64,000 nt of DNA, taken from positions 29,183 through 93,182 of IMG/VR virus record IMGVR_UViG_3300033148_007360. The stretch is one strand, 5' to 3'. A program made the position numbers and the translations under genes. Positions 8,280 to 61,746 of this stretch are shown here, one piece after another. A model generated the notes under the pieces. The model searched no databases, was not told the origin of the DNA, and saw only the letters and a list, made by a program, of their open reading frames with translations. This DNA comes from a virus. Position 1 is the first letter of the stretch. The number at the start of each line of letters is the position of its first letter.

Positions 8280-8490
8280 CCTTTCGGCCCCTCGGTAAGG
8301 TTCGGCTCAAGATGATATCGCCACCCAAAAGTTCACACCAAGTGGGAAAACTACCTTCTTCAAAATCCACCGGATAGTGTAAGTTCACACCATAAAACCC
8401 GCAGTAGCGCTTCTCAAAGGTTTTGGATTCCCCGATTTTGTGATTACAAGGGCAATTCAGGCAACTTTCGATCTCATACTTTTTGCTCAT
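8272..8490 (-). CDS. Small Cys-rich protein
   Basis: A 72-residue protein overlapping the end of the clamp gene. It reads MSKKYEIESCLNCPCN and later CGFYGVNL and FPTWCELLGG, so five cysteines could hold a metal. I choose the ATG at 8490 because TGAGG lies 7 nt upstream; an in-frame ATG at 8496 is also possible. The family is unrecognised; similar short C-x2-C proteins are common in phage replication regions. Confidence 0.65.
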   Translation of the reverse strand: MSKKYEIESCLNCPCNHKIGESKTFEKRYCGFYGVNLHYPVDFEEGSFPTWCELLGGDIILSRTLPRGRKGE

Positions 8491-45608: not shown

Positions 45609-46292
45609 TTAACCGTTCACACGCCTGATCAGCGCATTGGTACGAGTTGTTTTCACCTCTTCACGGATTCTCCTGCTCTTACCTTCCCCGCCTCCGAGAT
45701 CGCTGTCTTCATCCGGGAGGGGATCAATCCGGGGAATTCCATCGCTGATAACAGAGCGGAGAGATTCCACTTTCATTTTCGCCTCTTCCACCGTCTGTAC
45801 ACCCTTGAACAGGGGCAAGACGGCTTTCAACTTTTCCTCACCGAGGCCGCCGAGTTCCCTCTCTAGATAATCAACCACGCTCGCCTTCCGAGCCTCTTCA
45901 CTTTCAGCCTTCAGGCTATCACGCTCTTTCTTGATAGACTCAAGTTCCGCCTTTTGCTCTTTCAGCATGGCAAGGGACTCTTCAAGAAGGTCTTCAGCCG
46001 CATCGTACCGCACCTTGAGATTCTCGTATTTCTTTTGAAGGTCGGACTTTTCCCTTTCTCCCTCGGTGCGGAGTTTGCTGAGTTCACTTTTAACAAGCGC
46101 CTTCTCCTGCTGCTCCTCTTTGATTCTGTCCACAGACGCCTGGAGAAGTGAACGGCTGGCCTCCAACTCGGCTTTCAGCCTCTCCACCTCTTCCTCCAAG
46201 TTCTCACGTTTGGATCTTTCGCGGGTTAGTTCCTCTTGAACACGAGTGTGGTCTTCAAGAGACACCACGCTTCTTTGATCTTCAACACCCAT
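45609..46292 (-). CDS. Nested scaffolding protein, internal start within the protease gene
   Basis: Within the protease-scaffold frame, ATG at 46292 is preceded by AAGGAGAAGCATAAA, a good RBS, and begins MGVEDQRSVVSLEDHTRV. It would give a 227-residue scaffold without the protease domain. Lambda C/Nu3 uses the same arrangement, which makes many scaffold copies per protease. Seen directly: RBS and start codon. Inferred: that it is used. Confidence 0.65.
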   Translation of the reverse strand: MGVEDQRSVVSLEDHTRVQEELTRERSKRENLEEEVERLKAELEASRSLLQASVDRIKEEQQEKALVKSELSKLRTEGEREKSDLQKKYENLKVRYDAAEDLLEESLAMLKEQKAELESIKKERDSLKAESEEARKASVVDYLERELGGLGEEKLKAVLPLFKGVQTVEEAKMKVESLRSVISDGIPRIDPLPDEDSDLGGGEGKSRRIREEVKTTRTNALIRRVNG

Positions 46293-47024
46293 TTTATGCT
46301 TCTCCTTTTTCTCCTGCTCCGGCTTCCCACCCTGATTGACATGTTCAATAACTTGACTCGCGGGTGTTCCGCCATGTACTCGTTTTATACCACATCCACC
46401 CTCGCCCAAAGACTCCAGTAAATCTTGACATCTATTACACGTCTTGACATCTTGCGAAGCCTCGGCCAAGTGGCGGACGACCTCTATAGCACGGCTCTTA
46501 TTCTCAACAGCAACAACTTCGGGAAGAGCATCCTCTACACTGGGCACAAGAACAAAATCCCATCCCTCTGGATAATAATCCTCCTGCACATATTCGTAAC
46601 CGTCTTTAGTATCAACCGATCCCGACCCACGGGAACTGACCCCCATCTTCACGTCGGCCTCAAGAAGCGTTTTTAGAATCCGGCCCGACGGAGTTTCAAG
46701 AACATCAATAACACCCCTGACCGCCTTCCCATCAAGCCAAACGTCACGCACGATATGGGAAGCGTTCTTCGGATCCACCTCCAACCTGTCGCCAGGATGC
46801 CCGAGTTCCCCTAAAATAACCCCCCGCTTCAAATTCTGAGCAAACTCCGAATCCTCTTTGAGCAAATTCTCCCAAACCGATATAGGATATATCCTCTTGT
46901 TCCGGTTCGGAGTATCCGCCATCTGGATAGTCCCCTCCATTCGGAGAAGGATACCCTTCGGGAGTTCACCCTTTACAACATGAGCATCCTCCAAGAGAAA
47001 TTCCGATGTTATTGGTCGAGTCAT
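45609..47024 (-). CDS. Prohead protease fused to scaffolding protein
   Basis: A 471-residue protein. Residues 1-185 are a T4 gp21-type (peptidase family S77) protease: GVILGELGHPGD with His76, and VKMGVSSRGSGSV with the catalytic Ser130 or Ser131. The rest (about 245-420) is a long charged coiled coil like gp22-type scaffolds, followed by a short LGGLGEEKLKAVLPLF helix and a basic C-terminus (RIREEVKTTRTNALIRRVNG), the part that in other phages contacts the capsid shell. The N-terminus EFLLEDAH contains a likely self-cleavage site. In T4 protease and scaffold are separate genes; here they are one frame with an internal start at 46292. Confidence 0.88.
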   Translation of the reverse strand: MTRPITSEFLLEDAHVVKGELPKGILLRMEGTIQMADTPNRNKRIYPISVWENLLKEDSEFAQNLKRGVILGELGHPGDRLEVDPKNASHIVRDVWLDGKAVRGVIDVLETPSGRILKTLLEADVKMGVSSRGSGSVDTKDGYEYVQEDYYPEGWDFVLVPSVEDALPEVVAVENKSRAIEVVRHLAEASQDVKTCNRCQDLLESLGEGGCGIKRVHGGTPASQVIEHVNQGGKPEQEKKEKHKMGVEDQRSVVSLEDHTRVQEELTRERSKRENLEEEVERLKAELEASRSLLQASVDRIKEEQQEKALVKSELSKLRTEGEREKSDLQKKYENLKVRYDAAEDLLEESLAMLKEQKAELESIKKERDSLKAESEEARKASVVDYLERELGGLGEEKLKAVLPLFKGVQTVEEAKMKVESLRSVISDGIPRIDPLPDEDSDLGGGEGKSRRIREEVKTTRTNALIRRVNG

Positions 47025-47530: not shown

Positions 47531-47655
47531 CTTTTCTGTCGCTTCAGTTGACGAATATATTTGAGAGCGTCAAACATACGAAGGTCGGACAGTCTTTTCC
47601 CGCCCACATGAATGGAATCTCGAAACACCATGCAGTGAACAAGGAGAGGATTCAT
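47500..47655 (-). CDS. Small basic hypothetical protein
   Basis: A 51-residue basic protein, MNPLLVHCMVFRDSIHVGGK with a helical KYIRQLKRQKRC stretch. The ATG at 47655 overlaps the glycosyltransferase stop (ATGA), the usual coupling in this genome, so I reject the longer frame reaching 47799. Function unknown. Confidence 0.55.
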   Translation of the reverse strand: MNPLLVHCMVFRDSIHVGGKRLSDLRMFDALKYIRQLKRQKRCPMVLISSK

Positions 47656-50468: not shown

Positions 50469-51200
50469 TTACATGTTCCTTGCATTCCCCAGCGCATCAC
50501 CGTAAGCACGAGCAAGAGGGAGAAGTTCATTCATTGGAAGATCAATTTTGATGCCCCTCATAGTCATGGAGGGGTCAATCAGATTCGCAGACAGCCACCT
50601 GTGATGACCGTCTATAATAAACCCGTCCTCAGACGCAACCATGTATGACCCCTGAAGGAACTTCTTTGTAGCCTCTACACCGTTCTTCGCAGTCGAAGTA
50701 ATGGACTTATCAAAATAAATCTGGCGCTGGATAGGTTTCAAATTCGACGCCCTCTCCGAAAGGTTCGAAACCGATACGACATCATCCGGTTTTGAGCCGT
50801 CTCTCAAACCGTTCTCCAGAAAGAATTCCGCCTCCTCACCGGACAGACCCTCGGGAAACGGATCGGCTGGACTTGTTCCCGGAGCAAACGGTTCCCTGAC
50901 ATCCACATACCCTTCTTTCAATCGCCGCTGCAAGTCCTTAACCTGCCCTGGAGTAATCACCGGCATATCCCTTCGCCTGGTCTTCCCAAGAGAAGCCAAT
51001 ACCTGAACACGGAGGTAGTTCTTGTCGAAATTCGGGATAGCCTCATCCAGCGACTTGCCCTGATACTTGCGGAATAGTTCGTCCGCAAACTCTCTCGCTT
51101 CCGCCAATGGCGTTGAGTCAATCTCCATAGTACCGGCGGCTTGCCCACCGCCAGCCCCCTCTTCAAACAAGAACCGCCTTATGAGTTCTTTAGCATTCAT
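50469..51200 (-). CDS. ParB/sulfiredoxin-like domain protein with leader motif
   Basis: A 243-residue protein. The N-terminus MNAKELIRRFLFEEGAGGG fits the leader shared by many proteins encoded between here and 62 kb, with FLFEE as a possible protease site. The C-terminal third carries DGFIIDGHHRWLSANL, the ParB/sulfiredoxin-type D-G-x-H-R-x pattern, preceded by an LKPIQRQIYFDKS segment. In phages such domains bind or cut nucleic acid or bind nucleotides. The start at 51200 follows AGGGG. The leader suggests entry into the prohead, but this is inference. Confidence 0.65.
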   Translation of the reverse strand: MNAKELIRRFLFEEGAGGGQAAGTMEIDSTPLAEAREFADELFRKYQGKSLDEAIPNFDKNYLRVQVLASLGKTRRRDMPVITPGQVKDLQRRLKEGYVDVREPFAPGTSPADPFPEGLSGEEAEFFLENGLRDGSKPDDVVSVSNLSERASNLKPIQRQIYFDKSITSTAKNGVEATKKFLQGSYMVASEDGFIIDGHHRWLSANLIDPSMTMRGIKIDLPMNELLPLARAYGDALGNARNM

Positions 51201-51215
51201 CAGACAAACCCCTAA

Positions 51216-51434
51216 TCAGATTACCGACAGGTCTTCTCCGTCCAGATAGCGAGTTATCATTTCTCTTGCATCCACTTTATCCTTCCTCCTTTTGATTTTC
51301 CCTGGGCCGTAGGTTCTCTGGCGAGATTTCCTTGAACGCTCCCGTCCACCCTTGCGGGTTCCGATAGTGGTTGCTGGCTTTCGGCCCAGCCGCCCGAAAC
51401 TTTCATCATGAGAATGTTTCACCATCTTATCCAC
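51216..51434 (-). CDS. Small highly basic protein ending in a leader-like peptide
   Basis: A 72-residue frame with a GTG start at 51434 (ATG at 51425 possible). The middle is strongly basic (RKGGRERSRKSRQRTYGPGK, IKRRKDK), as in DNA- or RNA-binding peptides. The last 19 residues, MDAREMITRYLDGEDLSVI if started at the GTG at 51275, match the shared leader, and that GTG has its own AAGGAGG nine nt upstream. So either a basic protein carries the motif at its end, or a separate 19-residue peptide (51216-51275) is made from an internal start. Confidence 0.5.
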   Translation of the reverse strand: MDKMVKHSHDESFGRLGRKPATTIGTRKGGRERSRKSRQRTYGPGKIKRRKDKVDAREMITRYLDGEDLSVI

Positions 51435-51446
51435 CGCACGCCCGGC

Positions 51447-51803
51447 TTACGCATCTTGCTTATTGTCTTCATGCCTTTTCCCAACTTCCTCTTCACCCTC
51501 GTACAAAACAGGAATACCCAGCCTCTTGGCCTCCTCTATTTCAGCTTTCGTTCCCTTGCTCCCCTCCCAACCCCGAAGAACATAAACATGGTCTGACCGC
51601 CTGAGCCATTCCATGCTGATACTTTGATACCGCTCCACCGGCATCTCACCAAACAAGCCATAAAGAAAATCAAGAAAGGGACAAAAAGGAGCATACCCAG
51701 CTCGCATCCACCTCACGGAAGCAGCTATCCCGCGCCGCACGTTTTTCAAGAAATCCACTACATTGTCTGCCGAATACGGCCCGGCGATATAAACAGTCTT
51801 CAT
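51447..51803 (-). CDS. Nucleoside 2-deoxyribosyltransferase-like (DUF4406-type) protein
   Basis: A 118-residue protein of the nucleoside deoxyribosyltransferase/DUF4406 fold: MKTVYIAGPYSADN at the start, a helix RRGIAASVRWMRAGYAPFCP, then WLRRSDHVYVLRGWEGSKG and TKAEIEEAKRLGIPVLY. The conserved Y-I-A-G-P and S-K-G-T-x-x-E motifs are present. Family members cleave or exchange N-glycosidic bonds of nucleotides, and phage copies are often thought to act in nucleotide salvage. The ATG at 51803 overlaps the upstream stop (ATGA) with GGAGGGGGAGG before it. Confidence 0.78.
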   Translation of the reverse strand: MKTVYIAGPYSADNVVDFLKNVRRGIAASVRWMRAGYAPFCPFLDFLYGLFGEMPVERYQSISMEWLRRSDHVYVLRGWEGSKGTKAEIEEAKRLGIPVLYEGEEEVGKRHEDNKQDA

Positions 51804-52042
51804 CGCCTCCCCCTCCGCCTTCTCCTCGCGGATTCCCTGCGGATTCTCCTCTTGCGCTCCATCTTCTCCGGGTCCGCCTTTATTTCCATCCATTTACGCT
51901 TATATTCACCACGCGTTGCACGAGCCGAGGAAACAGACGGGCTGCCTATCAACTTCTTTGCTTCATATGCGCACTTGTAACACAAACCCCAAGCATAGAT
52001 AACCGCTTCCTTCCCACAATTCTCGCATACGCCGTGCATCAC
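51800..52042 (-). CDS. Small zinc-finger protein with Arg-rich tail
   Basis: An 80-residue protein (GTG at 52042 or ATG at 52039). The N-terminus CENCGKEAVIYAWGLCYKC is a four-cysteine zinc finger like those beside HNH-type and small DNA-binding phage proteins. The C-terminal third is almost all Arg/Lys (RKRRIRRESARRRRRGRR). No leader motif. It probably binds nucleic acid. Its stop is coupled to the next gene. Confidence 0.65.
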   Translation of the reverse strand: MMHGVCENCGKEAVIYAWGLCYKCAYEAKKLIGSPSVSSARATRGEYKRKWMEIKADPEKMERKRRIRRESARRRRRGRR

Positions 52043-52045
52043 CAG

Positions 52046-52216
52046 CTACAAAATATCGTTATCCTTAAGAACGCTTCGCAACATAGCCACCACAGCCATA
52101 TAAGTGTCATGCGAAAAACGGAACTCACGCCCGTACTCTGAATCAAAACTGACGCCAAGTTCCACAAGAATAATCTCCAATCCCTGGGCACCAGCCAGAA
52201 CCCCTTGCACAAGCAT
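52046..52216 (-). CDS. Small hypothetical protein
   Basis: A 56-residue frame, MLVQGVLAGAQGLEIILVEL, then FDSEYGREFRFSHDTYMAV and AMLRSVLKDND at the end. It begins six nt after the phosphoesterase stop and ends just before the zinc-finger gene, so it fits this packed operon better than the Trp/Leu/Cys-rich frame that overlaps it. Amphipathic alpha/beta character; no known family; weak RBS. Confidence 0.55.
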   Translation of the reverse strand: MLVQGVLAGAQGLEIILVELGVSFDSEYGREFRFSHDTYMAVVAMLRSVLKDNDIL

Positions 52217-52222
52217 CCATTC

Positions 52223-52747
52223 TCATACCACACTAAGTTCCCGGGGCCCTCCTCTCCCGATAAGCACGTCTCTCACTATGCACTTATATCCCGGCAAAAT
52301 ATGAACCGGAGTAACCTGATAGGATTCCCTCCCTTTAAACGTTGTTATGATTGAAAACCCCTGATGCCAGTCCGGGAAGTGAACATAGTGCGGATTCAAC
52401 TCCTCTTCCGGTTTTACCTCCGTCCACTCTCTAGGGCCGTACCTGACAAACTTATCAACACCAGCTTGGTGCACTTTCAAAATATTCGGAACATCGAACT
52501 CCTTGACGAAAGCCAGTTCAGGATGATCATACTTGTATTTCTCCATCCTGAACTCGTGGTTCCCTTCAAGGTAAATTAACTTGTTCTTTGCTATCTTCCG
52601 CCACTTCCGCAGATACTCGTGTGCAGCAACTATGTCATCTTGTAAGGACACAATCCTCTCTAAAGGATTCTTCTTGAACTTAGAAAACTGCCACCAGTCT
52701 ATCAAATCTCCGCCTATTACCACGTTATCAGGCTTTCGACTCAACAA
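52223..52747 (-). pseudogene. Truncated metallophosphoesterase-like protein
   Basis: A 174-residue calcineurin-like phosphoesterase fragment. It has the second and third metal-binding motifs (NVVIGGDLIDWW and YLEGNHEFRMEKY) but begins where the family normally has the first D-x-H motif already behind it, and the C-terminal part lacks a clear G-H-x-H. No in-frame extension upstream restores these. It may be a decaying gene, or a divergent binding-only version still translated. The ATG at 52747 overlaps the region after the next gene's end, with little RBS. Confidence 0.55.
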
Positions 52748-52777
52748 TCCCTCTCCTTGTTAGAGTTTAAGCCACTC

Positions 52778-53014
52778 TTATCCACCCATTTTAGCAGCCA
52801 AAGTACGACAAAACGTCTCCGGGTCATCAATAGCCTCCGAAGAATGTTCACCACTGGAGATTTTGTTAATACATTTTTGAACTTTCTCCTCGGTATCCCC
52901 CACAAGGGTGTCCCAGTACTTCTCAAGACTATCATCCGTCCACCCCCTTGGGAGCGTATCCCAGGGAGCTTCAAACAGATAATCCTCGATTATCCTGCGT
53001 GTGCGCCTGCTCAT
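52778..53014 (-). CDS. Leader-bearing small protein, paralogue A (W-x-TLP-x-GWT type)
   Basis: A 78-residue protein starting MSRRTRRIIEDYLFEAPWDT. The leader (IIE-D, LFE-A) is followed by LPRGWTDDSLEKYWDTLVGD, a short helix with KVQKCINKI, and FCRTLAAKMGG. The part after the leader is paralogous to the gene upstream. The start ATG overlaps that gene's stop (ATGA). Unknown function; I infer an internal head protein released by the prohead protease. Confidence 0.7.
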   Translation of the reverse strand: MSRRTRRIIEDYLFEAPWDTLPRGWTDDSLEKYWDTLVGDTEEKVQKCINKISSGEHSSEAIDDPETFCRTLAAKMGG

Positions 53015-53262
53015 CGTTCCGGTTCATAACCCACTTGTCTGGCCAATGACGCGCAGAAAGCTCCGGTGTCGCTTACCTTTCCCTCCATCCTCTCCATGCA
53101 CTGGGTAATCTTGTGCTCCACGTCACCGGTGAGCGAATCCCAGAAACTGCGAAGGCTTGCTTGCGTCCACCCGCGAGGAAGCGTCTCCCATGCTTCCAAG
53201 GTTGAAGTATTACCGGTTTCAGCCAAATAAGCATCAATCAACTTCTTCGCTTCCCGTCCCAT
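53011..53262 (-). CDS. Leader-bearing small protein, paralogue B (W-x-TLP-x-GWT type)
   Basis: An 83-residue protein starting MGREAKKLIDAYLAETGNTS, then AWETLPRGWTQASLRSFWDS, VEHKITQCMERMEGKV and FCASLARQVGYEPER. It shares W-(D/E)-TLPRGWT, FWDSL/YWDTL and FC-(A/R)-(S/T)-L with the following gene. I place the start at 53262 because the leader then sits at the N-terminus and CAGGAGGATGAGATT precedes it; an ATG at 53334 also has GGAGGAG upstream, so a longer 107-residue form is possible. Confidence 0.65.
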   Translation of the reverse strand: MGREAKKLIDAYLAETGNTSTLEAWETLPRGWTQASLRSFWDSLTGDVEHKITQCMERMEGKVSDTGAFCASLARQVGYEPER

Positions 53263-53367
53263 AATCTCATCCTCCTGTTCCCAGATCGGCTGGCGTCTGC
53301 GGGTTTTGCACGGGTGATACTTTACGCCAGCCATATACGCTCCTCCACAGCATGGTGGATGCGCTGC

Positions 53368-53475
53368 TCATGACTTTCCGCGTTTCTTCTCATAAGCTGC
53401 ACGCTTGGCGGCTTTCAACGCCCGCTTCTTTTCGAGCTTCTTGTTGCGTCTGGACTTTCTACCCTTTTTACTCAC
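53368..53475 (-). CDS. 35-residue very basic protein
   Basis: GTG at 53475, right after the upstream stop, opens (M)SKKGRKSRRNKKLEKKRA and LKAAKRAAYEKKRGKS. Eighteen of 35 residues are Lys or Arg. Small Lys/Arg-rich proteins like this occur in many phages and may bind nucleic acid or be packaged with DNA. Too short for family assignment; the RBS (GGAG) is rather far. Confidence 0.55.
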   Translation of the reverse strand: MSKKGRKSRRNKKLEKKRALKAAKRAAYEKKRGKS

Positions 53476-53476
53476 T

Positions 53477-54322
53477 TCAAGCAACTCTCCGACCGCTCAT
53501 TCCACGGAAATCCCTGATCAGTCCCCCTACGTAAGAAGAACAATACCTCGCCAAATCCCTAAGCGACCCTCTTGCTCTTATGTCAAGATTCTTCCTCGAA
53601 ATCCACTTCATATCATAGCCAAGGTTTCTTCCGACATTCTCCAGATAGTCCCTCAATTCCCCGTGATTATGACTTAAATCAAGAAATCTGTCGAATGCTT
53701 CAAAACTTTTCCTGTCCCTCATTCTCAAGTAAGTATCAATGATCTTGATCCAAGTATTCGCAGGAGAACCGCCCCCGAGAATATCGAAAAGTTTTTCCCC
53801 ATGCTTATATACGCGCTTCATGTCCGAAATGGACCTCGTTTCAAGACACTCAAGCGCCGCTATACGGGTAAGTTTGCGAATTAAACTCCTACACCTCTCT
53901 TCATCACCAGCAGAGGCAATAACATTACCGGAGAGCATATCATCCAACTCATCAAGGTGATGCAAAGCCTTACCAAAGTCATCGTCGCTCCTTGATATGC
54001 CATATGCTTCCTGCACCGTCATAAGAAAATCCCTGATCTCTTCCGCGTCTCCAGACCTAAATACTTCACTATCCATAAAGTTCGTTATAACAGCAGTGTG
54101 GTTTCTTATTACAGCAGCACCAACTCTTACCAAGATTTCACGAAACTCCTCGAACAACACCCGGAAAAGACCCCTCGCTTCCTCCAGCGTGTCCTTCATC
54201 GCTTCACAGGCATACAAGTCAAAGAAGTCTGTCGTGCGAGACGATTCAAAAAGAACCCTCTCAATCAAATACGATGTCAATTTCATTTTCAACAACAACT
54301 TTTGCTCATCTGGGCCGCTCAC
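53477..54322 (-). CDS. Leader-bearing helical protein, tandem paralogue 2
   Basis: A 281-residue helical protein. The frame opens with GTG at 54322 (GTGA overlap with the upstream stop), but ATG at 54286 gives MKLTSYLIERVLFESSRTTD, identical to the start of the neighbour and containing the leader (YLIE-R, LFE-S). About 37 N-terminal residues and the C-terminal 90 (RMRDRKSFEAFDRFLDLSHN, SRKNLDIRARGSLRDLARYC) match the neighbour, while the middle is diverged. No known domain. Probably an internal or head-associated protein. Confidence 0.7.
   Translation of the reverse strand: MSGPDEQKLLLKMKLTSYLIERVLFESSRTTDFFDLYACEAMKDTLEEARGLFRVLFEEFREILVRVGAAVIRNHTAVITNFMDSEVFRSGDAEEIRDFLMTVQEAYGISRSDDDFGKALHHLDELDDMLSGNVIASAGDEERCRSLIRKLTRIAALECLETRSISDMKRVYKHGEKLFDILGGGSPANTWIKIIDTYLRMRDRKSFEAFDRFLDLSHNHGELRDYLENVGRNLGYDMKWISRKNLDIRARGSLRDLARYCSSYVGGLIRDFRGMSGRRVA
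54177..54290. repeat. 114-bp exact direct repeat, copy 2 (leader of 53.5-54.3 kb gene)
   Basis: This segment is identical, base for base, to 55004-55117 in the same orientation. It covers the start codon MKLTS and about 36 following codons of each paralogue, plus a few bases upstream. Identity at synonymous positions implies a recent duplication, gene conversion or strong constraint at the nucleotide level. Confidence 0.95.
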
Positions 54323-55113
54323 CTGCCCCCCATCTCCTCAAACTGGCGGATAAGGCCCCTCACGAAGGATGAACAGTACCTCGCCAGCTCTCGAAGTGAT
54401 CCTCTAGCTCTTATGTCAAGATTCTTCCTCGAAACCCACCTCATATCATAACCAGCGTCTCTCCCAACAACCTCTAGATATTCCCTCAATTCCCCATGAC
54501 TATGCTGTAAATCAAGAAATCCGTCGAATGCTTCAAAACTTTTCCTGTCCCTCATCCTCAAGTAAGCATCAATAATTTTAACCCAAGTCCGAGGAGAGCC
54601 TGCTCGTAATACAGCTGGACTGAAAAGCTCCTCGCCAGCTTCGTACACGTCCCTCATCTCAGAAATGGACATCGTTAGCACACGCTTTTCAGCCGCCTGT
54701 TTCAGAGAAGCCCAAATTCCATCCCTAAGAAATACATCCTCAAACCCCCCTATCGATTCGCCTGCATCGACAAGCCTATGAAGAAATGATTCAGCAGCCA
54801 CCAAGTCCGGATCATTCCCGCGTATACCATACACATTCTTTACCAGCGCCATATAATCAGCAACCTCCTCAAGAGACCCATCAAAAATAAGATCATCTCT
54901 CCCCTTTTCCGCCATGAAAGCAGTATGCTCCCTGATAACTTCCTTCCCAACAATCACCATAAGCTCGTAAAAGTCGTCAAACAAAACTCGAAAGAGGTTC
55001 TTGGCTTCCTCCAGCGTGTCCTTCATCGCTTCACAGGCATACAAGTCAAAGAAGTCTGTCGTGCGAGACGATTCAAAAAGAACCCTCTCAATCAAATACG
55101 ATGTCAATTTCAT
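54319..55113 (-). CDS. Leader-bearing helical protein, tandem paralogue 1
   Basis: A 264-residue helical protein starting MKLTSYLIERVLFESSRT at 55113. It is paralogous to the gene that follows: identical leader, conserved C-terminal third (RMRDRKSFEAFDGFLDLQHS, SRKNLDIRARGSLRELARYC) and a different centre (residues about 60-160). The preceding gene overlaps by four bases. Function unknown; the leader suggests processing by the prohead protease. Confidence 0.72.
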   Translation of the reverse strand: MKLTSYLIERVLFESSRTTDFFDLYACEAMKDTLEEAKNLFRVLFDDFYELMVIVGKEVIREHTAFMAEKGRDDLIFDGSLEEVADYMALVKNVYGIRGNDPDLVAAESFLHRLVDAGESIGGFEDVFLRDGIWASLKQAAEKRVLTMSISEMRDVYEAGEELFSPAVLRAGSPRTWVKIIDAYLRMRDRKSFEAFDGFLDLQHSHGELREYLEVVGRDAGYDMRWVSRKNLDIRARGSLRELARYCSSFVRGLIRQFEEMGGR

Positions 55114-55117
55114 TTTC
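55004..55117. repeat. 114-bp exact direct repeat, copy 1 (leader of 54.3-55.1 kb gene)
   Basis: Partner of 54177-54290, 827 bp away in direct orientation. Recombination between the two copies would delete one gene and leave a hybrid with an intact leader. Confidence 0.95.
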
Positions 55118-55424
55118 TCTGACCCGGCACGGAAACCGTCAATCCCGTGTGTGCTCCTGATAAAGCCGCAAAGTCGTCGCAGGGAAATTTATGCCCACCT
55201 ATATCAAACTCAACAGGTTGGGTGGTTTCAATATACACAGCTTTAGTGGAATAGGCTGCATTAGGCCAGGAAAACGTCAATTTCGTTGTCGCCGTAGTCG
55301 CTCCGGGAAGATTCAAGTTATACTGGCGGATGTCCTCACCCGTATAAGAGAACTCGCTCCTATACTGAAAGAGTTTTCGCCAGTCTGAAAAGCGGTATAT
55401 GTTAAAGCTGAAAGTAACGGACAT
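55110..55424 (-). CDS. Hypothetical beta-rich small protein
   Basis: A 104-residue protein with strands SVTFSFNIYRFSDW, QYNLNLPGATTATTKLTFSW, AVYIETTQPVEFDIGGHKFP and HTGLTVSVPG. No leader motif and no membrane segment. The stop overlaps the next gene start by four bases. It looks like a small structural beta-sandwich, perhaps a virion decoration protein; unproven. Confidence 0.6.
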   Translation of the reverse strand: MSVTFSFNIYRFSDWRKLFQYRSEFSYTGEDIRQYNLNLPGATTATTKLTFSWPNAAYSTKAVYIETTQPVEFDIGGHKFPCDDFAALSGAHTGLTVSVPGQRK

Positions 55425-55425
55425 A

Positions 55426-55710
55426 TCAAGTCTTCCCGTTCATCCTGTCCCAAATCCGGTTCTGACCGACACGAAGTTCCGAAATATCATCCCTTATAGC
55501 CCGGAACATCTCCTCCAAACGGTCTTGCTGTGCAACGCAAACATCCTTCCCCACCTTCTCCTGTCCAAGCATGGATAACGACTTCTCTACCGCCCCTATT
55601 CTCCTATCGTCGGCTTTCCTTAAAACAGTAGCTACAACGCTTACCATACCCCCGCCCCCGAAAATGAACCCCAGCGCTGAAATGATAATCAACCAGATGC
55701 TGTGTTCCAT
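55426..55710 (-). CDS. Membrane-anchored coiled-coil protein
   Basis: A 94-residue protein with one N-terminal hydrophobic helix (IWLIIISALGFIFGGGGMVS) and a charged coiled coil behind it (GAVEKSLSMLGQEKVGKDVC, DRLEEMFRAIRDDISELRVG, QNRIWDRMNG). This resembles small phage lysis-region proteins of XhlA or inner-membrane spanin type, and also tail-associated coiled coils. No partner lysis gene was recognised nearby. Confidence 0.6.
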   Translation of the reverse strand: MEHSIWLIIISALGFIFGGGGMVSVVATVLRKADDRRIGAVEKSLSMLGQEKVGKDVCVAQQDRLEEMFRAIRDDISELRVGQNRIWDRMNGKT

Positions 55711-55725
55711 AACAATGCAACCTCC

Positions 55726-56361
55726 TCAATCTTCAGACGTGAGCTTGTCTACCGCCTCCTTCAAATCATCCACGCTTTTCCACAGACTGCTTATCTTTTG
55801 CCAGGCCCAAGAAGCCGCTTTTTTAACCTTCATCCGCAGGTCGGCAAACAGACCCTCATTCAAATACTTCCGGTCGAAAGACTCTCTGGCTTTCAACCTG
55901 ACGTCTTTCGCAACACCTGTCACCTCACGCCACACCTCCAACTCCTCATCGAGAAGCCTCTGGGTCTGAGCATTCAGTTTACTGTATGCCTTCCAGAACA
56001 ACTCCTCCCACTTCGGGCTGATTTTCTTCCTCTTGAGCGGCCCGAAGAGCGACCTCTCCTCCAGAACAGCCATCACTTCATCCACCTCAATAACCACGCT
56101 ACCAATCTCCTCCATGATAGGAATCAGCTCCCCTTTAATGGCGTCCTCCACCTTCTTAAGATGCCTTACGCTTTTCTCCAAATCCTTAGTTAAACTCTCG
56201 ATTTCCTTCTGTTTCCGCCGAATCTCATCACGGGTTCTTTTCCACTCCCGGATTCGTTCCTTCGCAAACTCCTCAAGAGTTTGTTCGCCTTTTCCTCGTG
56301 GCACAACCCCTCTCGCCCCTTCCCGCAAAAGGGCATCCACGTAGCTACCGCCGTGACTCAT
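55726..56361 (-). CDS. Helical coiled-coil protein, possible leader
   Basis: A 211-residue, highly charged helical protein. The N-terminus MSHGGSYVDALLREGARG is a looser version of the shared leader; a long coiled coil (about 35-85, EIRRKQKEIESLTKDLEKSV) and further helices follow, with a C-terminal WAWQKISSLWKSVDDLKEAV. No family recognised. It may be an internal head protein or a tail/scaffold accessory. Confidence 0.6.
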   Translation of the reverse strand: MSHGGSYVDALLREGARGVVPRGKGEQTLEEFAKERIREWKRTRDEIRRKQKEIESLTKDLEKSVRHLKKVEDAIKGELIPIMEEIGSVVIEVDEVMAVLEERSLFGPLKRKKISPKWEELFWKAYSKLNAQTQRLLDEELEVWREVTGVAKDVRLKARESFDRKYLNEGLFADLRMKVKKAASWAWQKISSLWKSVDDLKEAVDKLTSED

Positions 56362-56380
56362 AACCCACCTCCCCTAAAAA

Positions 56381-56833
56381 CTAGAAGCTGCTGCTTCTGA
56401 TATGATAGGTATCAGCCGCCTGACGAACAGCCTGACACGTCTGATGCCAAATGTGATTCACTTCCTTGTACGTGTAATGCCCACCGGCATGCCCATACTC
56501 TTTCGAGAGCAGAAAGCACCCCAGTCCGTGAATCACACTCAGTACAGATGCGGAACTCCCCGCAAACCACGATGGGAGAGAAAGGTTTTTCTGATACGCC
56601 GAAAGAAGCCGGTAGAAATACCCCGCCTCCCCTCCGTGCAAGGTAAGCCCGGACACTACCTTGTACGTGCTGCTGAGTTGCCGGTAGAGAAGATCTCGGA
56701 GGGTAGGAAGATCAAGAGTCCTCTGCCCGGTAGACACCTCCGTATTCAGGAATTGCCTCGCCTCAGCCACCATGGAATGAAGAGTGCTCACGCTGATACC
56801 AGTCAGTTCCGAACCGTAGTTTAAAATCGCCAT
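56381..56833 (-). CDS. Hypothetical helical protein
   Basis: A 150-residue protein, mainly helical (LHSMVAEARQFLNTEV, LDLPTLRDLLYRQLSSTYKV, AVRQAADTYHIR), with several aromatic residues and a Gly/His loop (EYGHAGGHYTYKEVNHIWHQ). No leader. The ATG at 56833 uses AGGAGG supplied by the last codons of the upstream zinc-ribbon gene. Function unknown. Confidence 0.65.
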   Translation of the reverse strand: MAILNYGSELTGISVSTLHSMVAEARQFLNTEVSTGQRTLDLPTLRDLLYRQLSSTYKVVSGLTLHGGEAGYFYRLLSAYQKNLSLPSWFAGSSASVLSVIHGLGCFLLSKEYGHAGGHYTYKEVNHIWHQTCQAVRQAADTYHIRSSSF

Positions 56834-56837
56834 CTCT

Positions 56838-56930
56838 TTAGCCTCCTATTTTCAGTTTCCACCCGCAAAACGGGCACCTGTAGACACCATTCAGGCGGGG
56901 GGCGTAAGCCCCGCACCTCGGGCACTTCAT
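56838..56930 (-). CDS. 30-residue zinc-ribbon protein
   Basis: ATG at 56930 opens MKCPRCGAYAPRLNGVYRCP followed by FCGWKLKIGG. Two C-x2-C knuckles in the order CPRCG...CPFCG are a complete rubredoxin-type zinc ribbon, so this very short gene is convincing despite its weak RBS. Its final Gly codons double as the RBS of the next gene. Confidence 0.7.
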   Translation of the reverse strand: MKCPRCGAYAPRLNGVYRCPFCGWKLKIGG

Positions 56931-56943
56931 TATCCAGATGTAC

Positions 56944-57294
56944 TTACGAAGACTTGTCGGGCAAGTTTCCGTCTCCAAGAAGAATCTTGTCCAGAACATC
57001 AGCAGGATCCCCCTTGCCCCTGGAAACTGCCTCTATAGCCTCCGACAGTCTCTCGGAATCCACCTCTCCAACCTCAGGCGAAAATCCATCCCCCAAGGAA
57101 GACTGAACAAATTCTTTCAACGCATCCTTTGTTCTCTCCCCAGGGCACTTGCTGCAATTAAGCCCCTTCCACTTGTCTAGATCCAGCGATATTTTTTCTG
57201 AATCGTAGTACCTTATAACGGAAAACAACGGATGGTCGGCAGGTAGAGCCTCCAACACCGCCATATCAACTTTTCCTGTAAGAACCATATCCAT
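56944..57294 (-). CDS. Hypothetical protein
   Basis: A 116-residue acidic protein with MDMVLTGKVDMAVLEALPAD at the N-terminus, NCSKCPGERTKDALKEF in the middle and helices (SERLSEAIEAVSRG, ADVLDKILLGDGNLPDKSS). One C-x2-C pair only. The start at 57294 follows GAGGAG. The short VDMAVLEALP segment contains an L-x-A but no convincing leader. Unknown function. Confidence 0.6.
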   Translation of the reverse strand: MDMVLTGKVDMAVLEALPADHPLFSVIRYYDSEKISLDLDKWKGLNCSKCPGERTKDALKEFVQSSLGDGFSPEVGEVDSERLSEAIEAVSRGKGDPADVLDKILLGDGNLPDKSS

Positions 57295-57315
57295 CGCTTC
57301 ACTCCTCTCGTGATC

Positions 57316-57522
57316 TCAACCTCTACCACCGGCTCGAATACCAGATATGAGAGCATCAGCTTCCTCCGGGGACAGCCCCCTTACCCCGGCGGAAATAAAC
57401 CAGTTTACAAAAATATCCGAATCCAGCGTATGGTTCTCCATCACAACCAAGTGGTCATAGTTGCCGCCAAACCACTTCAGCGTAGCACCCGCCAAGACCG
57501 GATATTTCTTGCACAGGTGCAA
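57316..57522 (-). CDS. Hypothetical protein with unusual start
   Basis: At least 68 residues: HLCKKYPVLAGATLKWFGGN, HLVVMENHTLDSDIFVNWFI, then GLSPEEADALISGIRAGG. The reading frame stays open upstream to a TAG near 57554 and looks protein-like there (KEKDPFEAG), but the only usual start codon is a TTG at 57522 with no RBS. Either the real start is non-canonical near a GAGGAG at about 57556, or the gene was truncated. Unknown family. Confidence 0.45.
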   Translation of the reverse strand: MHLCKKYPVLAGATLKWFGGNYDHLVVMENHTLDSDIFVNWFISAGVRGLSPEEADALISGIRAGGRG

Positions 57523-57552
57523 TCCGGCTTCAAACGGATCTTTTTCTTTGCA

Positions 57553-57984
57553 CTAGCTCCTCGCCAAATCCTGTAACTCGCTGCGAGAAATATACACTTT
57601 CACTCTCTTCCCATAATCATTTCTTACCACAACGAGTTCATTACTAACATCTGCACCAAGTCTCATTAAAACCTGCCTTGTTCTAGGAGCGTTCTTAACG
57701 AGATCCTCAACAGTAACAGATCCAAAAACCGCCTCCTCACCCTGCCTAAGCACACTTATTGCTTCTCTCGTACTTATAGGGGTAATATCACCCTCAGCAC
57801 GGTACTCAAAGGATCCAAGAGAGGCTTCACGTGGAATGGCCCCTTTAATATCCTTCTCCATGTCCCTAAGTTCACTTGGATCGGTAAGAGTCCAAGCAAC
57901 CTCAAACTGCACAACAGAATCAGGCCCAATGTCCCCTCCTACAACGGCAGCTTCAATTAGTTTCCTTGCAACTTCGTTTTTCAT
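57553..57984 (-). CDS. Leader-bearing protein
   Basis: A 143-residue protein starting MKNEVARKLIEAAVVGGD with GGAGG ahead of the ATG. LIE-A is a good prohead-protease-type site. The rest has strands and helices (VVQFEVAWTLTDPSELRDME, TPISTREAISVLRQGEEAVF, TRQVLMRLGADVSNELVVVR, RVKVYISRSELQDLAR). Residues 8-14 (ARKLIEA) are identical to the internal-start product at 59026. Unknown function; inferred internal head protein. Confidence 0.7.
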   Translation of the reverse strand: MKNEVARKLIEAAVVGGDIGPDSVVQFEVAWTLTDPSELRDMEKDIKGAIPREASLGSFEYRAEGDITPISTREAISVLRQGEEAVFGSVTVEDLVKNAPRTRQVLMRLGADVSNELVVVRNDYGKRVKVYISRSELQDLARS

Positions 57985-58586
57985 AATTCACCTCCAAATT
58001 CTACCGCCACGCTGGCGGGTGTAGTCCCAGCTATTGCATATAGAACAGGTTCCCTGCCTCCTGTCACGGGATACGAATACGTCACAGGAGCATTACCGGC
58101 CCGAGCAGGTTCGCACTCACATCCGGCCACGGTAACAGGAAGAGTCGCCCCGGTAACCGGACTGAAAGACAAACTCACCTTTCCCTGAAAGTAATCAACA
58201 CTTCCCGTAATAATGTTTTGAGTCTGACCGGCAGGCGCAGCGATATTTCCACTACCGTCATCCGCCGATACGGAATAACCGGAAACCGTTACATAAACAC
58301 TCTTGGGAACAACACCCTGAACATTGCTACCGTCCGCCCGGGATAGCTGGATGGCGGAAACAGTGCTGCTCCCCTGTGCAACATTCGTCTGAACAAGGTC
58401 GAAATATTTTCCGTCGAATGATATGGGATTCCAGCCTTTCTTTTGCTCACCGCTCCCACGATCAAGCATAAGAACAACATCCCCGCCGGACAGATTCCTA
58501 AGAGACAAAAACCCCTTTCCACGAAAAACCCTCACGACCCGTGTCAAGGCTGTTGTTACATATTTGTTTACTCGTCCTGTTATCAT
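57981..58586 (-). CDS. Beta-rich virion-like protein
   Basis: A 201-residue protein without cysteine motifs apart from one C-E-C near the end. Strands dominate (NKYVTTALTRVVRVFRGKGF, SLRNLSGGDVVLMLDRGS, YVTVSGYSVSAD, SVDYFQGKVSLSFSPVTGAT). The pattern 'VTG...V...DY..G...ltFs' is typical of phage structural beta domains and similar to the inserted domain of the capsid protein. The ATG at 58586 follows GGAGG. Confidence 0.6.
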   Translation of the reverse strand: MITGRVNKYVTTALTRVVRVFRGKGFLSLRNLSGGDVVLMLDRGSGEQKKGWNPISFDGKYFDLVQTNVAQGSSTVSAIQLSRADGSNVQGVVPKSVYVTVSGYSVSADDGSGNIAAPAGQTQNIITGSVDYFQGKVSLSFSPVTGATLPVTVAGCECEPARAGNAPVTYSYPVTGGREPVLYAIAGTTPASVAVEFGGEL

Positions 58587-58630
58587 AGTTTCCTCCTGCA
58601 CCGGCATGTAGGTGAAAATACCACTAGAAC

Positions 58631-58661
58631 GTCCACATTTGGATTCTGTAGCGTTTTTTAT
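58631..58661. repeat. Single arm of the inverted-repeat family at 58.6 kb
   Basis: GTCCACATTTGGATTCTGTA followed by GCGTTTTTTATCT matches the arm consensus of the elements at 7.5, 11.9, 33.3 and 47.1 kb, but no partner arm follows. It lies in the 70-bp gap between two genes and may be a degraded element. Confidence 0.65.
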
Positions 58662-59026
58662 CTGTTAGTAGGATAGCGTGGGCCTCCAGCGATAGTACCG
58701 GGAATGTCATAGCCCTGACTGCGCAAGTCATCTATAAACTCTTCGCAGTCGTCGTACCAATCAGTTTCTGCCCCCCAGCACGCACCGACAATATCGCCTT
58801 TACAATAAGCTATCAGGATAGCCTCGCCACCACGGGGGGGCCGTAGCGCGATGACCTCATCAATATTCCCCGCCTTCGCCGCCCTCTTCATATCTGTTGG
58901 AAGATAATTGATATCATCGCCCTTCTCCCACGCAACTGTCTCACAAAGATTTCTCAAAAACTTGCTTTCCTTTGACACACGTTGATTTACAGCAGCTTCA
59001 ATAAGTTTCCGAGCTGTCGAGTTCAT
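58658..59026 (-). CDS. Leader-bearing protein from an internal start
   Basis: A 122-residue protein starting MNSTARKLIEAAVNQRVSKE. GAAGGAGGCGAACA is placed ideally before the ATG at 59026. After the leader: FLRNLCETVAWEKGDDINYL, PTDMKRAAKAGNIDEVIALR and a C-terminal GEAILIAYCKGDIVGACWG, an alpha/beta fold unknown to me. Initiation here would yield the product expected for the leader family, independent of the longer frame. Confidence 0.7.
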   Translation of the reverse strand: MNSTARKLIEAAVNQRVSKESKFLRNLCETVAWEKGDDINYLPTDMKRAAKAGNIDEVIALRPPRGGEAILIAYCKGDIVGACWGAETDWYDDCEEFIDDLRSQGYDIPGTIAGGPRYPTNR

Positions 59027-59218
59027 TGTTCGCCTCCTTCGATCAAACATTTGCATAATCCGTAATTGCTTTTCAGCATCTTCCTTCGTTTTGAAAGTCT
59101 TGGGCCATCCCTTCGGCTGGTTGGCCTTGTCATACCCGTGCTTATAAATGCACCACGGTCTCCCCTCTTTAGCATCCTTCCTCCGACACTTTTCAACGTA
59201 TTCTAAAAGAGTACCCAT
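58658..59218 (-). CDS. In-frame two-part protein: small KWC-type domain plus leader-bearing protein
   Basis: A 186-residue open frame starting MGTLLEYVEKCRRKDAKEGR at 59218. The first 63 residues contain RPWCIYKHGYDK, KGWPKTFKTKEDAEKQLRIM, a pattern found in small phage proteins of about that size. The next residue starts MNSTARKLIEAAV, the shared leader, with a perfect RBS in front. The frame could make a fusion, or a 5' domain whose stop was lost so that two genes now read as one. Confidence 0.55.
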   Translation of the reverse strand: MGTLLEYVEKCRRKDAKEGRPWCIYKHGYDKANQPKGWPKTFKTKEDAEKQLRIMQMFDRRRRTMNSTARKLIEAAVNQRVSKESKFLRNLCETVAWEKGDDINYLPTDMKRAAKAGNIDEVIALRPPRGGEAILIAYCKGDIVGACWGAETDWYDDCEEFIDDLRSQGYDIPGTIAGGPRYPTNR

Positions 59219-59219
59219 C

Positions 59220-59495
59220 CTATATTTCGTTTCTTCGCAGCCTCTTGTCAAGTTCCCTTACCGCATCAAAAGTGTCATAAAACTGCCGTCTCAATTCGGC
59301 AATTGCATCCCATTCCCAAGTATCGGGGTCAAGAGTTTGCAGGATTTTATCCAGCCCCTCAATCGCAGCGCTAAGGTGAGGTGCCACATCATACCCTAAA
59401 GCCTTAAGTAAGCTCGGATAACTGATAACATCCGGGCCACCCATTTTCCTTTCGGAAAGTCCTCCTTCAATAATTCGTCTCACACTTCCGGGCAT
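59220..59495 (-). CDS. Leader-bearing small protein
   Basis: A 91-residue helical protein starting MPGSVRRIIEGGLSERKMGG after GGGGGG. IIE-G gives the protease-type site. The remainder holds YPSLLKALGYDVAPHLSAAI, LDKILQTLDPDTWEWDAIAE and LRRQFYDTFDAVRELDKRLR. Unknown function; belongs to the set of inferred internal head proteins. The next gene (59218) begins one base after its stop. Confidence 0.7.
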   Translation of the reverse strand: MPGSVRRIIEGGLSERKMGGPDVISYPSLLKALGYDVAPHLSAAIEGLDKILQTLDPDTWEWDAIAELRRQFYDTFDAVRELDKRLRRNEI

Positions 59496-60170
59496 TCATC
59501 TTCCCCCCTTAAACTCCTCACACAATCTCCTGAACAACAACGGCAGCGATCCGTGCACTACAACTTCCCTGTCGGCACTCTCATCCCGCAGCATCATCCT
59601 GTGCTCCGTCCCTGATACTTTTGAAAATCTTACCGTATAGGGATAATCCTCAACAAGAAATTCGCAAGTTACATGGTCACCCTCCGCCCGAAAGAGGGTA
59701 GCCTCTCCAATGGCATTCACCGTCCGAAGCAAAGGATCGGATATAGAATTGCAGGAGGACTTTACATCCTCGATAGACTGCTCCAGAACAACCCTCTTTA
59801 CCCACTCTTCCGGCGAGTACCCATCCCCCTCGTAGTTGCACACGTCGCACTTCTTTTCATAAAGAAGACTGCCGCAGTCGGGACAGAACCGATGCACCCT
59901 TGCGTCCCTCCGACTTGAAGTTTCCGGTGGAATAGTACCGTCTCGGAGGAAAGAATCTATCGCCTCGATAAGGTTTGATGCAGCAGATTCAGTTTTCGCT
60001 CTTCCATCAGGCACAAGCGAAGCACCACATGCCGGACACTTGGATGGATACCGCCCCGGATAGCGCGGGACACGCACCCCGCATGAGGGGCAAACAAACT
60101 TTCCCGACATGGCGCGTGCCATCCCTGGAGTTACATTCACTTTTTTCGTAGCAGTCTCTTGCACTTTCAC
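59496..60170 (-). CDS. Protein with two zinc ribbons around an internal leader motif
   Basis: A 224-residue protein. Residues 20-53 are a zinc ribbon (FVCPSCGVRVPRYPGR, SKCPACGASL), followed by ESAASNLIEAIDSFLRDG, a copy of the leader motif but internal (about 62-76). A second ribbon (FCPDCGSLLYEKKCDVCNYE) comes next, then an alpha/beta C-terminus. The start is GTG at 60170 after GGGGGG. The motif's internal place might mean a different use, or cleavage that frees the second half. Confidence 0.65.
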   Translation of the reverse strand: MKVQETATKKVNVTPGMARAMSGKFVCPSCGVRVPRYPGRYPSKCPACGASLVPDGRAKTESAASNLIEAIDSFLRDGTIPPETSSRRDARVHRFCPDCGSLLYEKKCDVCNYEGDGYSPEEWVKRVVLEQSIEDVKSSCNSISDPLLRTVNAIGEATLFRAEGDHVTCEFLVEDYPYTVRFSKVSGTEHRMMLRDESADREVVVHGSLPLLFRRLCEEFKGGR

Positions 60171-60186
60171 GATCCCCCCACCGAAC

Positions 60187-60429
60187 TTATCCAGAATAAC
60201 GCTGAACCTGACTGAACGGAACCCTGACCAGCTCCCCAGTCTCTACATCCCGCGCTACGTAGTACTCCTCCATGTTGTTTATCCTCACGATATATACAGT
60301 CTTACCGTCATGAGTTGTCACCCACGCACCGACATCGGGGTTGGCCGTAACTCCGCGGTCGTCATTCCACCCTTCCATTTCCGCAATGTACCGCTCAATC
60401 ATGCTCTTTGCATTTTCATTTTTGCTCAT
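60187..60429 (-). CDS. Leader-bearing small protein
   Basis: An 80-residue protein starting MSKNENAKSMIERYIAEMEG after AAGGAG. MIE-R and IAE-M are possible cleavage sites. The rest is a small beta barrel-like stretch (VGAWVTTHDGKTVYIVRINN, EEYYVARDVETGELVRVPFS) that resembles SH3/KOW-type folds. Unknown function. Confidence 0.68.
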   Translation of the reverse strand: MSKNENAKSMIERYIAEMEGWNDDRGVTANPDVGAWVTTHDGKTVYIVRINNMEEYYVARDVETGELVRVPFSQVQRYSG

Positions 60430-60454
60430 TTTTGATTCTCCTTTTCATCTCTTT

Positions 60455-60619
60455 TCATCTCCGGGGATTGTTTTTTCTTGCATCTTCCAAACCCTGAACA
60501 ATACCCGCAAGAACAAACCCACCGATGACTACAAGGATAAATATCGGCCAGAAAATAATCTTCAGGGCGAGCTTCAACTTGCCGCCCCATCCTCTTTTTC
60601 TCCTTACCCTTTTACCCAT
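60455..60619 (-). CDS. Small single-helix membrane protein
   Basis: A 54-residue frame with an excellent RBS (AAAAAGGAGGCAGGT) before the ATG at 60619. It has a basic N-terminus (MGKRVRRKRGWGGKLK), one long hydrophobic helix (IIFWPIFILVVIGGFVLAGI) and a short charged tail. It is likely an inner-membrane protein with its N-terminus inside; a holin-like or superinfection role is possible but unproven. Confidence 0.75.
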   Translation of the reverse strand: MGKRVRRKRGWGGKLKLALKIIFWPIFILVVIGGFVLAGIVQGLEDARKNNPRR

Positions 60620-60643
60620 ACCTGCCTCCTTTTTCCAGAATCA

Positions 60644-61477
60644 CTACTTGCGACCGCGCTTCCCGATATACCCGGAAATGTCAACACCGGCTACACGCTC
60701 TATTTGTTTCGCCAGTTCAAGAGAATCGTTCATAATTTCATCTCTTACCCCCTTAAAAAAATCATCCACCGCGGCATCTACGCGGACTCCCATTATCCTT
60801 ATCAACTCAAAAATACGGCTTCTGTATTTCATCAACAACGTTCTCTGCTTTTCCCCCACAGACAACCAGATGTAATCTCCCTCGATTTCATACCGATTCC
60901 TGTCCCACGGTTTTCTCTTGGCCCAATCCGAAAATCCTTTCCTTATATCAGACGCCGACCATGAACCGGTCGCCACTTTTCTCGCGCTGTCTTCCGCTGC
61001 ATCCACATAATTTTCATACTTTCTTGCCACCCTCGAAACAAAGTCCCGAACAATCTCCCGAATCTTCTCATCCTGCTCACGAAACTCCCTCACCTTTTCT
61101 TCATACTCATCCTGCGATATTTTTCCATCGAGTTTTTGACCTAGAATGTCCGGGCGCTCCTTGCCGACAACAAAAAGAATATTCCTTGTGTACATATCGG
61201 GATTTTTAAGAACATCTATCTCTTTGCCAACATTCCTTACCCCGTAAGCAGCGATGTCGTCTACATGCTTGTGCCTCAAGAGGAATATATCGAGATAGTC
61301 CTCAAGCCTCATCCCCACTTCAAGATCTCCATCCATCCGTCGCCACTTTAAAGAATCTATCCTCTTCAAGCGGGGGAACTTCTTCAGAACTTCATCTCTT
61401 TCGGAAGAATCTACCTCTGACGAAAATTCATTCCCCTCAACAAACCTGCACAGAACCAGACGCCCAACTCTGGACAT
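60644..61477 (-). CDS. Hypothetical helical protein
   Basis: A 277-residue charged, largely helical protein: LEVGMRLEDYLDIFLLRHKH, VDDIAAYGVRNVGKEIDVLK, GKISQDEYEEKVREFREQDE and a C-terminal GVRDEIMNDSLELAKQIERV. There is no leader at its start (MSRVGRLVLCRFVEG) and no known motif. It is the largest gene in the cluster between 56 and 62 kb and could be a structural or ejection protein. Confidence 0.65.
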   Translation of the reverse strand: MSRVGRLVLCRFVEGNEFSSEVDSSERDEVLKKFPRLKRIDSLKWRRMDGDLEVGMRLEDYLDIFLLRHKHVDDIAAYGVRNVGKEIDVLKNPDMYTRNILFVVGKERPDILGQKLDGKISQDEYEEKVREFREQDEKIREIVRDFVSRVARKYENYVDAAEDSARKVATGSWSASDIRKGFSDWAKRKPWDRNRYEIEGDYIWLSVGEKQRTLLMKYRSRIFELIRIMGVRVDAAVDDFFKGVRDEIMNDSLELAKQIERVAGVDISGYIGKRGRK

Positions 61478-61482
61478 GACAC

Positions 61483-61746
61483 CTACTTTTTCTCTTTGTA
61501 AGAATTGAACACCGCCCCCCGAACAATCTGGAGTACTTTCGCAGCTTGATCCTTGTCCTTAGCGTAATCAACTATTTCCTTCGCCAGCCTGACCCCGATT
61601 TTTTCGTCGCTCGTATCCGCAACAAACTCTTTGTCCTCCGCATCAGCAGTGGACTTCTTGTCCTTGTCATCCGGCTTCTTGTCCCCGTTATCAGCCTCGC
61701 TGAACTGAATGTAATCCTCAATAAACTTCCGCACGTTTGCTGGCAT
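61483..61746 (-). CDS. Leader-bearing acidic protein
   Basis: An 87-residue protein starting MPANVRKFIEDYIQFSEAD. AAGGAGTGGCCAAG precedes the ATG, so an upstream extension to 61833 is rejected. Behind the leader is a low-complexity Asp/Lys stretch (NGDKKPDDKDKKSTADAEDK) and a helical C-terminus (IGVRLAKEIVDYAKDKDQAA). FIE-D is the likely processing site. The acidic linker resembles internal or scaffold-type head peptides. Confidence 0.68.
   Translation of the reverse strand: MPANVRKFIEDYIQFSEADNGDKKPDDKDKKSTADAEDKEFVADTSDEKIGVRLAKEIVDYAKDKDQAAKVLQIVRGAVFNSYKEKK

Follow-up and report, generated by a model that had tools for sequence, protein, structure and literature searches.

The window analysed here is a stretch of 64,000 nucleotides from an IMG/VR virus record (IMGVR_UViG_3300033148_007360, positions 29,183 to 93,182), in which ten genes open with variants of one short leader peptide, a sharing that we regard as near certain. 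The source record, 99,067 bases long, is that of an uncultured T4-like bacterial virus and encodes a T4-type head; in addition to the prohead protease and major capsid protein listed below, a portal protein (phrog_213) is encoded. Head genes and leader genes occupy the minus strand. A nucleotide search of the 44-64 kb part of the window against 50,697 phage records returned no match, nor did the protease as a single query in IMG/VR. The major capsid protein used in the same way matched only a 13-kb contig, 100% identical over that protein, and the next-nearest capsid proteins are about 40% identical.

The genes listed here, which comprise the leader genes, two head genes and a zinc-ribbon gene, are designated in the text by their start coordinates; ↓ marks a proposed cut.

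61483..61746, minus strand: leader gene, 87 residues, MPANVRKFIEDYIQFSEADNG; Shine-Dalgarno sequence AAGGAG
60187..60429, minus strand: leader gene, 80 residues, MSKNENAKSMIERYIAE↓MEG; leader profile, six-frame scan, T4-site profile
59220..59495, minus strand: leader gene, 91 residues, MPGSVRRIIEGGLSE↓RKM; leader profile, six-frame scan
58658..59026, minus strand: leader gene, 122 residues, MNSTARKLIEAAVNQRV; leader profile, six-frame scan; strong internal Shine-Dalgarno sequence
57553..57984, minus strand: leader gene, 143 residues, MKNEVARKLIEAAVVGGDIGPDSVVQ; N-terminus resembling those of the relatives G003 and G007
54319..55113, minus strand: leader gene, 264 residues, paralogue 1, MKLTSYLIERVLFE↓SSR; leader profile, T4-site profile
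53477..54286, minus strand: leader gene, 269 residues, paralogue 2, MKLTSYLIERVLFE↓SSR; leader profile, T4-site profile
53011..53262, minus strand: leader gene, 83 residues, MGREAKKLIDAYLAE↓TGN; leader profile, T4-site profile
52778..53014, minus strand: leader gene, 78 residues, paralogue of the 53262 gene, MSRRTRRIIEDYLFE↓APW; leader profile, T4-site profile
51216..51275, minus strand: leader-only open reading frame, 19 codons, VDAREMITRYLDGEDLSVI / MDAREMITRYLDGEDLSVI; GTG start, good ribosome site AAAGGAGGAAGG
50469..51200, minus strand: leader gene, 243 residues, ParB-like (IIDGHHRW) cargo, phrog_2859, MNAKELIRRFLFE↓EGAGGG
45609..47024, minus strand: S77 (gp21-type) prohead protease with a C-terminal coiled-coil fusion; Pfam Peptidase_S77 E=1e-21, phrog_207 E=3.8e-37
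44168..45595, minus strand: major capsid protein, phrog_138; candidate site KLVTLAE↓DF near the N-terminus
59496..60170, minus strand: zinc-ribbon protein with an internal leader-like stretch, SAASNLIEAIDSFL, after the ribbon; found by eye, below the six-frame scan cut-off

The start of the 59026 gene is uncertain, as it lies in frame within a longer open reading frame from 59251, yet a strong ribosome site precedes it. The 51275 open reading frame sits directly before the ParB-like gene and may be a truncated relic; for comparison, alt.-1/alt.-2 of T4 carry the annotation of a duplicated and broken initial part of alt. Membership of the zinc-ribbon protein in the leader set is uncertain. A similar zinc ribbon in the relative G003/G002 (L106:15195) carries a leader-like stretch before the ribbon, MQIADQMIQCVMNGLDPDHVME.

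One leader on eight protein families

Statistics were computed over the 128 gene calls of the record. Pairwise BLOSUM comparison of the first 22 residues gave 75 N-terminal pairs scoring at least 26; 12 sets of internal segments averaged 38.8 such pairs and never exceeded 54. A leave-one-out leader profile, from which paralogue pairs were omitted together, was scored against 1736 internal windows of the proteome; seven of the nine trained leaders outscored all of them, and three internal windows scored as high as the 55113/54286 pair. The 51200 leader, outside the training set, scored 16.1 versus 7.5 for the best non-leader N-terminus. A six-frame scan placed the ten leaders at 22.7-30.2, the previously unlisted 51275 open reading frame at 14.6 and chance matches at 11.9 or below.

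Across the ten gene starts the leader core reads [FILM]I[ED]xxh and is amphipathic, with a median hydrophobic moment of 0.65 versus 0.45 for other N-termini (p=5e-5). The extended pattern [LIFMV]I[ED]xx[ILV] occurs in 11 of the 128 N-termini (1.1 expected). The bare [LIFM]-x-E site, found in 45 of them with 39.9 expected, is not enriched; it is present in about one third of 24-residue stretches of this proteome, so that the site taken alone is weak evidence. The leader is carried by 10 of the 21 genes at 50.4-61.8 kb and by none of the 107 elsewhere (Fisher p=1.6e-9); the refuting case named in the original prediction, a motif just as frequent in cytoplasmic proteins of the phage, was thus not observed. 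The original prediction, that about ten genes open with one amphipathic peptide, is thus confirmed at all ten starts and supported statistically, and the gp21-type protease that it described is indeed encoded. Its description of the proteins behind the leader as unrelated applies to eight families and not to ten genes, two of these families being paralogous pairs.

Sequence identity is 61% within the 55113/54286 pair and 42% within 53262/53014; every other body-against-body blastp comparison gave nothing better than E=0.06. These observations bear on a quite improbable alternative, that the genes form one old, fast-diverging family in which the leader is no portable tag but the part that has been conserved best. 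The clustering of the genes and the paralogy of two pairs over their whole length would suit such a family; the eight bodies without detectable similarity, the spread in protein size from 78 to 269 residues, and the occurrence of the ParB-like domain elsewhere with other N-termini argue against it.

At the DNA level, the 55113 and 54286 genes are identical over 114 nt, comprising 4 nt upstream of the ATG and 110 nt of the gene; beyond this block identity drops to about half, and the upstream DNA is unrelated; the 5′ end of the pair was probably copied or converted recently. This identical block is also what could be expected if the shared sequence were a nucleic-acid signal for translation or regulation that is coding by chance. 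We find that explanation barely credible, since the DNA of the eleven leader copies shows a conservation of only 48% per column and their upstream regions differ, whereas the peptide is preserved, from which it follows that selection acts on the peptide.

All ten mature cargo proteins are acidic, with a median net charge of -4.5 per 100 residues (proteome, -1.1). The Pfam and PHROGs searches made gave no cargo match to anti-restriction families, a tblastn search of three cargoes against the 50,697 phage records gave no match, and profile searches of the remaining cargoes gave no T4 internal-protein family. AlphaFold modelled the leader as a helix of its own in a paralogue (predicted local distance difference test, pLDDT, 61; residues 2-15) and in the ParB-like protein (pLDDT 34; residues 3-14), with each helix ending close to the putative cut; local confidence there is below 50 in both, and the helices were given no weight.

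Correspondence with T4 sites and proposed position of the cut

In the T4 leader, residues 4 and 7 direct targeting, and residues 8 and 10 direct processing (PMC9026906); in MKTYQEFIAE↓A, taken from the T4 record, these are P7, P4, P3 and P1. We built a T4-only profile from five sites (ipII, gp22, gp24, gp21 and Alt), with cut positions from papers where given and otherwise from the L/I-x-E pattern. Its top ten among the 128 N-termini included six of the ten leaders (53262, 54286, 55113, 60429, 53014 and 51200) together with the protease of the phage itself (Mann-Whitney p=4e-5), whose N-terminus, MTRPITSEFLLE↓DAH, fits the profile. An earlier profile made from only ipII and ipIII was weaker (p=0.005).

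In the register set by this profile, P7 of the leaders is hydrophobic, P4 is Y/F/V, P3 is L/I and P1 is glutamate (Glu). That register coincides with a second Glu, [YFV][LI]xE, downstream of the LIE motif: DYLFE↓A, AYLAE↓T, RYIAE↓M, RVLFE↓S twice, and RFLFE↓E. At the Glu position of LIE, in turn, 53262 has Asp, 51200 has Arg and 51275 has Thr, and similar N-termini of the relative G003 have Gln (MNANDLIQEVL, QMIQCVM). Because the first Glu is variable and the T4 register lies at the second, we think that LIE/IIE/FIE probably belongs to the targeting helix and that the next site is the putative cut; for most leaders, we lean slightly towards cleavage at the second Glu. The original prediction placed the cut at LIE-A, IIE-D, FIE-D and LIE-R, a proposal not borne out in that form: the bare site is not enriched, its Glu varies, and the T4 register lies downstream. 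Cleavage at LIE/IIE was judged less likely than at the downstream Glu, and LIE↓A is a possible cut in 59026 and 57984, both of which are without a second Glu.

It may be, although we consider it unlikely, that the leader serves to dock proteins on the prohead core and is retained afterwards, cleavage being absent or confined to some of the proteins. The two leaders without a downstream Glu, the substitutions (D, R, T) at the first, and bare L/I-x-E sites no commoner than expected are all in keeping with docking alone; furthermore, a T4 leader with Asp at position 10 still targets and is not processed (PMC9026906). Set against this, six leaders and the protease N-terminus keep the full T4-like spacing with Glu at P1.

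The high hydrophobic moment and the basic residues in the polar face of the helix could also describe an amphipathic helix directed at the membrane of the host or at some other structure of the cell, with no relation to the head. Conserved acidic residues within the helix and the match to T4 head sites speak against this, as do the exclusive location beside the head genes and the leader-type N-termini next to head genes of relatives; we hold it to be highly improbable.

Leaders in relatives and a ParB-like cargo

Relatives were collected by alignment of four capsid proteins, which led to 80 IMG/VR loci. One of them, G010 (112 kb), bears a different leader, NIVKRLRE↓SR, on seven genes whose bodies are without blastp similarity. 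On leave-one-out scoring each of these leaders was recovered, with 0-3 of 1714 internal windows reaching an equal score, and five of the seven genes lie just upstream of the protease and capsid genes of G010. In Streptococcus phage GXN1, a weak count puts MRLxRLxE N-termini on at least five genes. By eye, LR756501 has MxxYxxFIxE-type N-termini, and G003 and G007 have xMIxxVLxGxxPxxVVE-type ones. The profile made from the window placed N-termini of G003, G006, G008 and G010 at top ranks, mostly one or two per record, an example from G008 being MKAKNYGRSLIERVAFEQED. In G006, G008, G013 and G019, where the records are short or the samples small, the hits of an automatic N-terminal motif finder were signal peptides or low-complexity sequence, and leaders there rest on reading of the N-termini and not on statistics. 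In the literature covered, which lacks most subscription journals, nothing on lineage-specific leader families turned up other than work on T-even phages and on the propeptides of giant phages.

The 51200 protein allows the same cargo to be followed across phages. Its IIDGHHRW domain is ParB-like and matches phrog_2859, a family of unknown function (E=1.5e-10). In other S77 phages, homologues have leader-type N-termini: LR756501 (MINVIKYSLFES), G019 (MKSFLQMWNILE), G013 (MKNFYEMLKLIE) and G048 (MSWSSYKDAKVLFES, with SYKDAKVLFES). Neighbours of the ParB-like gene in LR756501, G019 and G013 begin alike (MVKRYKQFINEG; MNFKEWLIRE; MKKFNEWLKE, MKTFHQWLE), and in G048 the gene comes directly after the S77 protease (Pfam E=3.6e-33) and before scaffold-like and capsid genes. 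The homologue in Aeromonas phage 65 is without the leader, and its Pfam ParB match is below cut-off. A portable tag predicts that one cargo should occur with different, locally matching N-termini; the ParB-like cases, few as they are, fit this prediction. At L139:5998-9870, on a metagenome-assembled genome contig labelled Acidiferrobacteraceae, a phage head cluster is made up of an S77 protease, a ParB-like gene, two small genes, a scaffold-like gene and a capsid gene, in that order.

Several other genes were observed. Between the leader genes and the protease, 47652-50018 encodes a 788-residue protein with several family-2 glycosyltransferase domains and TPR; further glycosyltransferase-like genes were seen by eye at L002 7.5-12.5 kb. 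Tandem pairs of similar genes at 33366-33884 with 33903-34427 and at 34450-35955 with 35967-37448 look like paralogues of tail tube and tail sheath. The phage, whose head is of T4 type, encodes two distinct sliding clamps of the DnaN type (DNA polymerase III beta), at 8474-9613 and 62081-63190. A 964-residue open reading frame at 1567-4461 joins a uracil-DNA glycosylase-superfamily domain, a 3′-5′ exonuclease and a family A DNA polymerase. Near both ends of the record lie three copies of a CSFGERCSFGE-type repeat protein (L002:534-1106, L004:175-999 and L004:1658-2338), the N-termini of which are nearly identical.

A probable capsid-targeting propeptide and its relation to known systems

The leader statistics, the location, the S77 protease, the match to T4 sites and the recurrence in relatives lead us to favour, with a probability of roughly 75%, a capsid-targeting propeptide of the T4 internal-protein type. 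In this model, the amphipathic N-terminal helix would dock a newly made protein on the prohead core, represented by the coiled-coil part fused to the protease, a region that we read from its sequence as scaffold-like. The shell would then close around the docked protein, and the S77 protease would cut after a Glu, mostly at [LI]-x-E at residues 13-17. The mature proteins would remain in the head with the DNA and probably enter the host at infection, ejection being plausible by analogy. Docking, cleavage, packaging and ejection are all steps that we infer. The original prediction of a portable leader that targets the head as in T4 is supported by comparison (location, protease, T4 profile and relatives), save for its cleavage site.

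Several observations weigh against this model. T4 IPI-III are basic, in contrast to the acidic cargo here; half of the island genes do not carry the leader; 59026 and 57984 are without a second Glu, and 61746 and 59495 fit imperfectly; a profile of the G013/G019 leaders does not detect those of the window (p=0.18); and the comparison profiles were picked after the sequences had been looked at.

With T4 IPI-III and Alt the system shares a short amphipathic N-terminal leader on non-homologous proteins, an L/I-x-E site at residues 10-19, a gp21 (S77) protease and the P7/P4/P3/P1 pattern. T4 IPI-III block different GmrSD restriction enzymes and have only the leader in common (PMC12373910). The window leader differs from MKTYQEFIAE↓A in sequence and is longer, with the cut proposed at 13-17. 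It is present in ten or eleven copies, as against three internal proteins plus Alt in T4; its genes adjoin head genes; protease and scaffold-like region form a single protein; and the cargo families, where searched, are not those of T4. In charge, T4 IPI-III range from +2.6 to +5.6 per 100 residues and Alt is at -0.1. Small and basic mature proteins are usual but not strictly defining, Alt being large and slightly acidic; in the window set all ten are acidic.

In phages of the SPN3US/phiKZ type, too, a related prohead protease removes N-terminal propeptides from many inner-head proteins (PMC5694885, PMC10052503), but those propeptides mostly exceed 100 residues, compared with about 15 here. 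In phage P1, the defence-blocking protein DarB is packaged through an N-terminal segment, for which 30 residues suffice (PMC9024508); the Dar proteins, however, are without a consensus. The G010 leader resembles that of the window in arrangement, one peptide on seven genes of which five precede the protease and capsid genes, although its sequence is another and its site is L-R-E. We infer that the window phage has an enlarged version of the T4 internal-protein arrangement, in which the tag is lineage-specific and the cargo acidic, and in which cleavage and ejection would proceed as described.

More tentatively, and at somewhat less than even odds, S77-protease phages may generally carry a lineage-specific leader, a 'zip code' that co-evolves with the scaffold of each phage. 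The basis for this proposal is the statistics for the window phage and G010, the weak count for GXN1, and reading by eye of LR756501, G013/G019 and G003/G007. If it is true, leader families read genome by genome would amount to an inventory of the proteins that a given phage loads and injects. T4 has a handful of internal proteins with such a tag, and these disarm host defences. A tag that is general yet lineage-specific would allow likely candidates for injection to be listed from sequence alone in uncultured phages, where almost all such proteins are today hypothetical; phage heads could be loaded with proteins by means of a natural tag set, and the joint evolution of tag and scaffold would become testable. 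The value of the finding would lie in extending the T4 principle to far relatives with changed tags.

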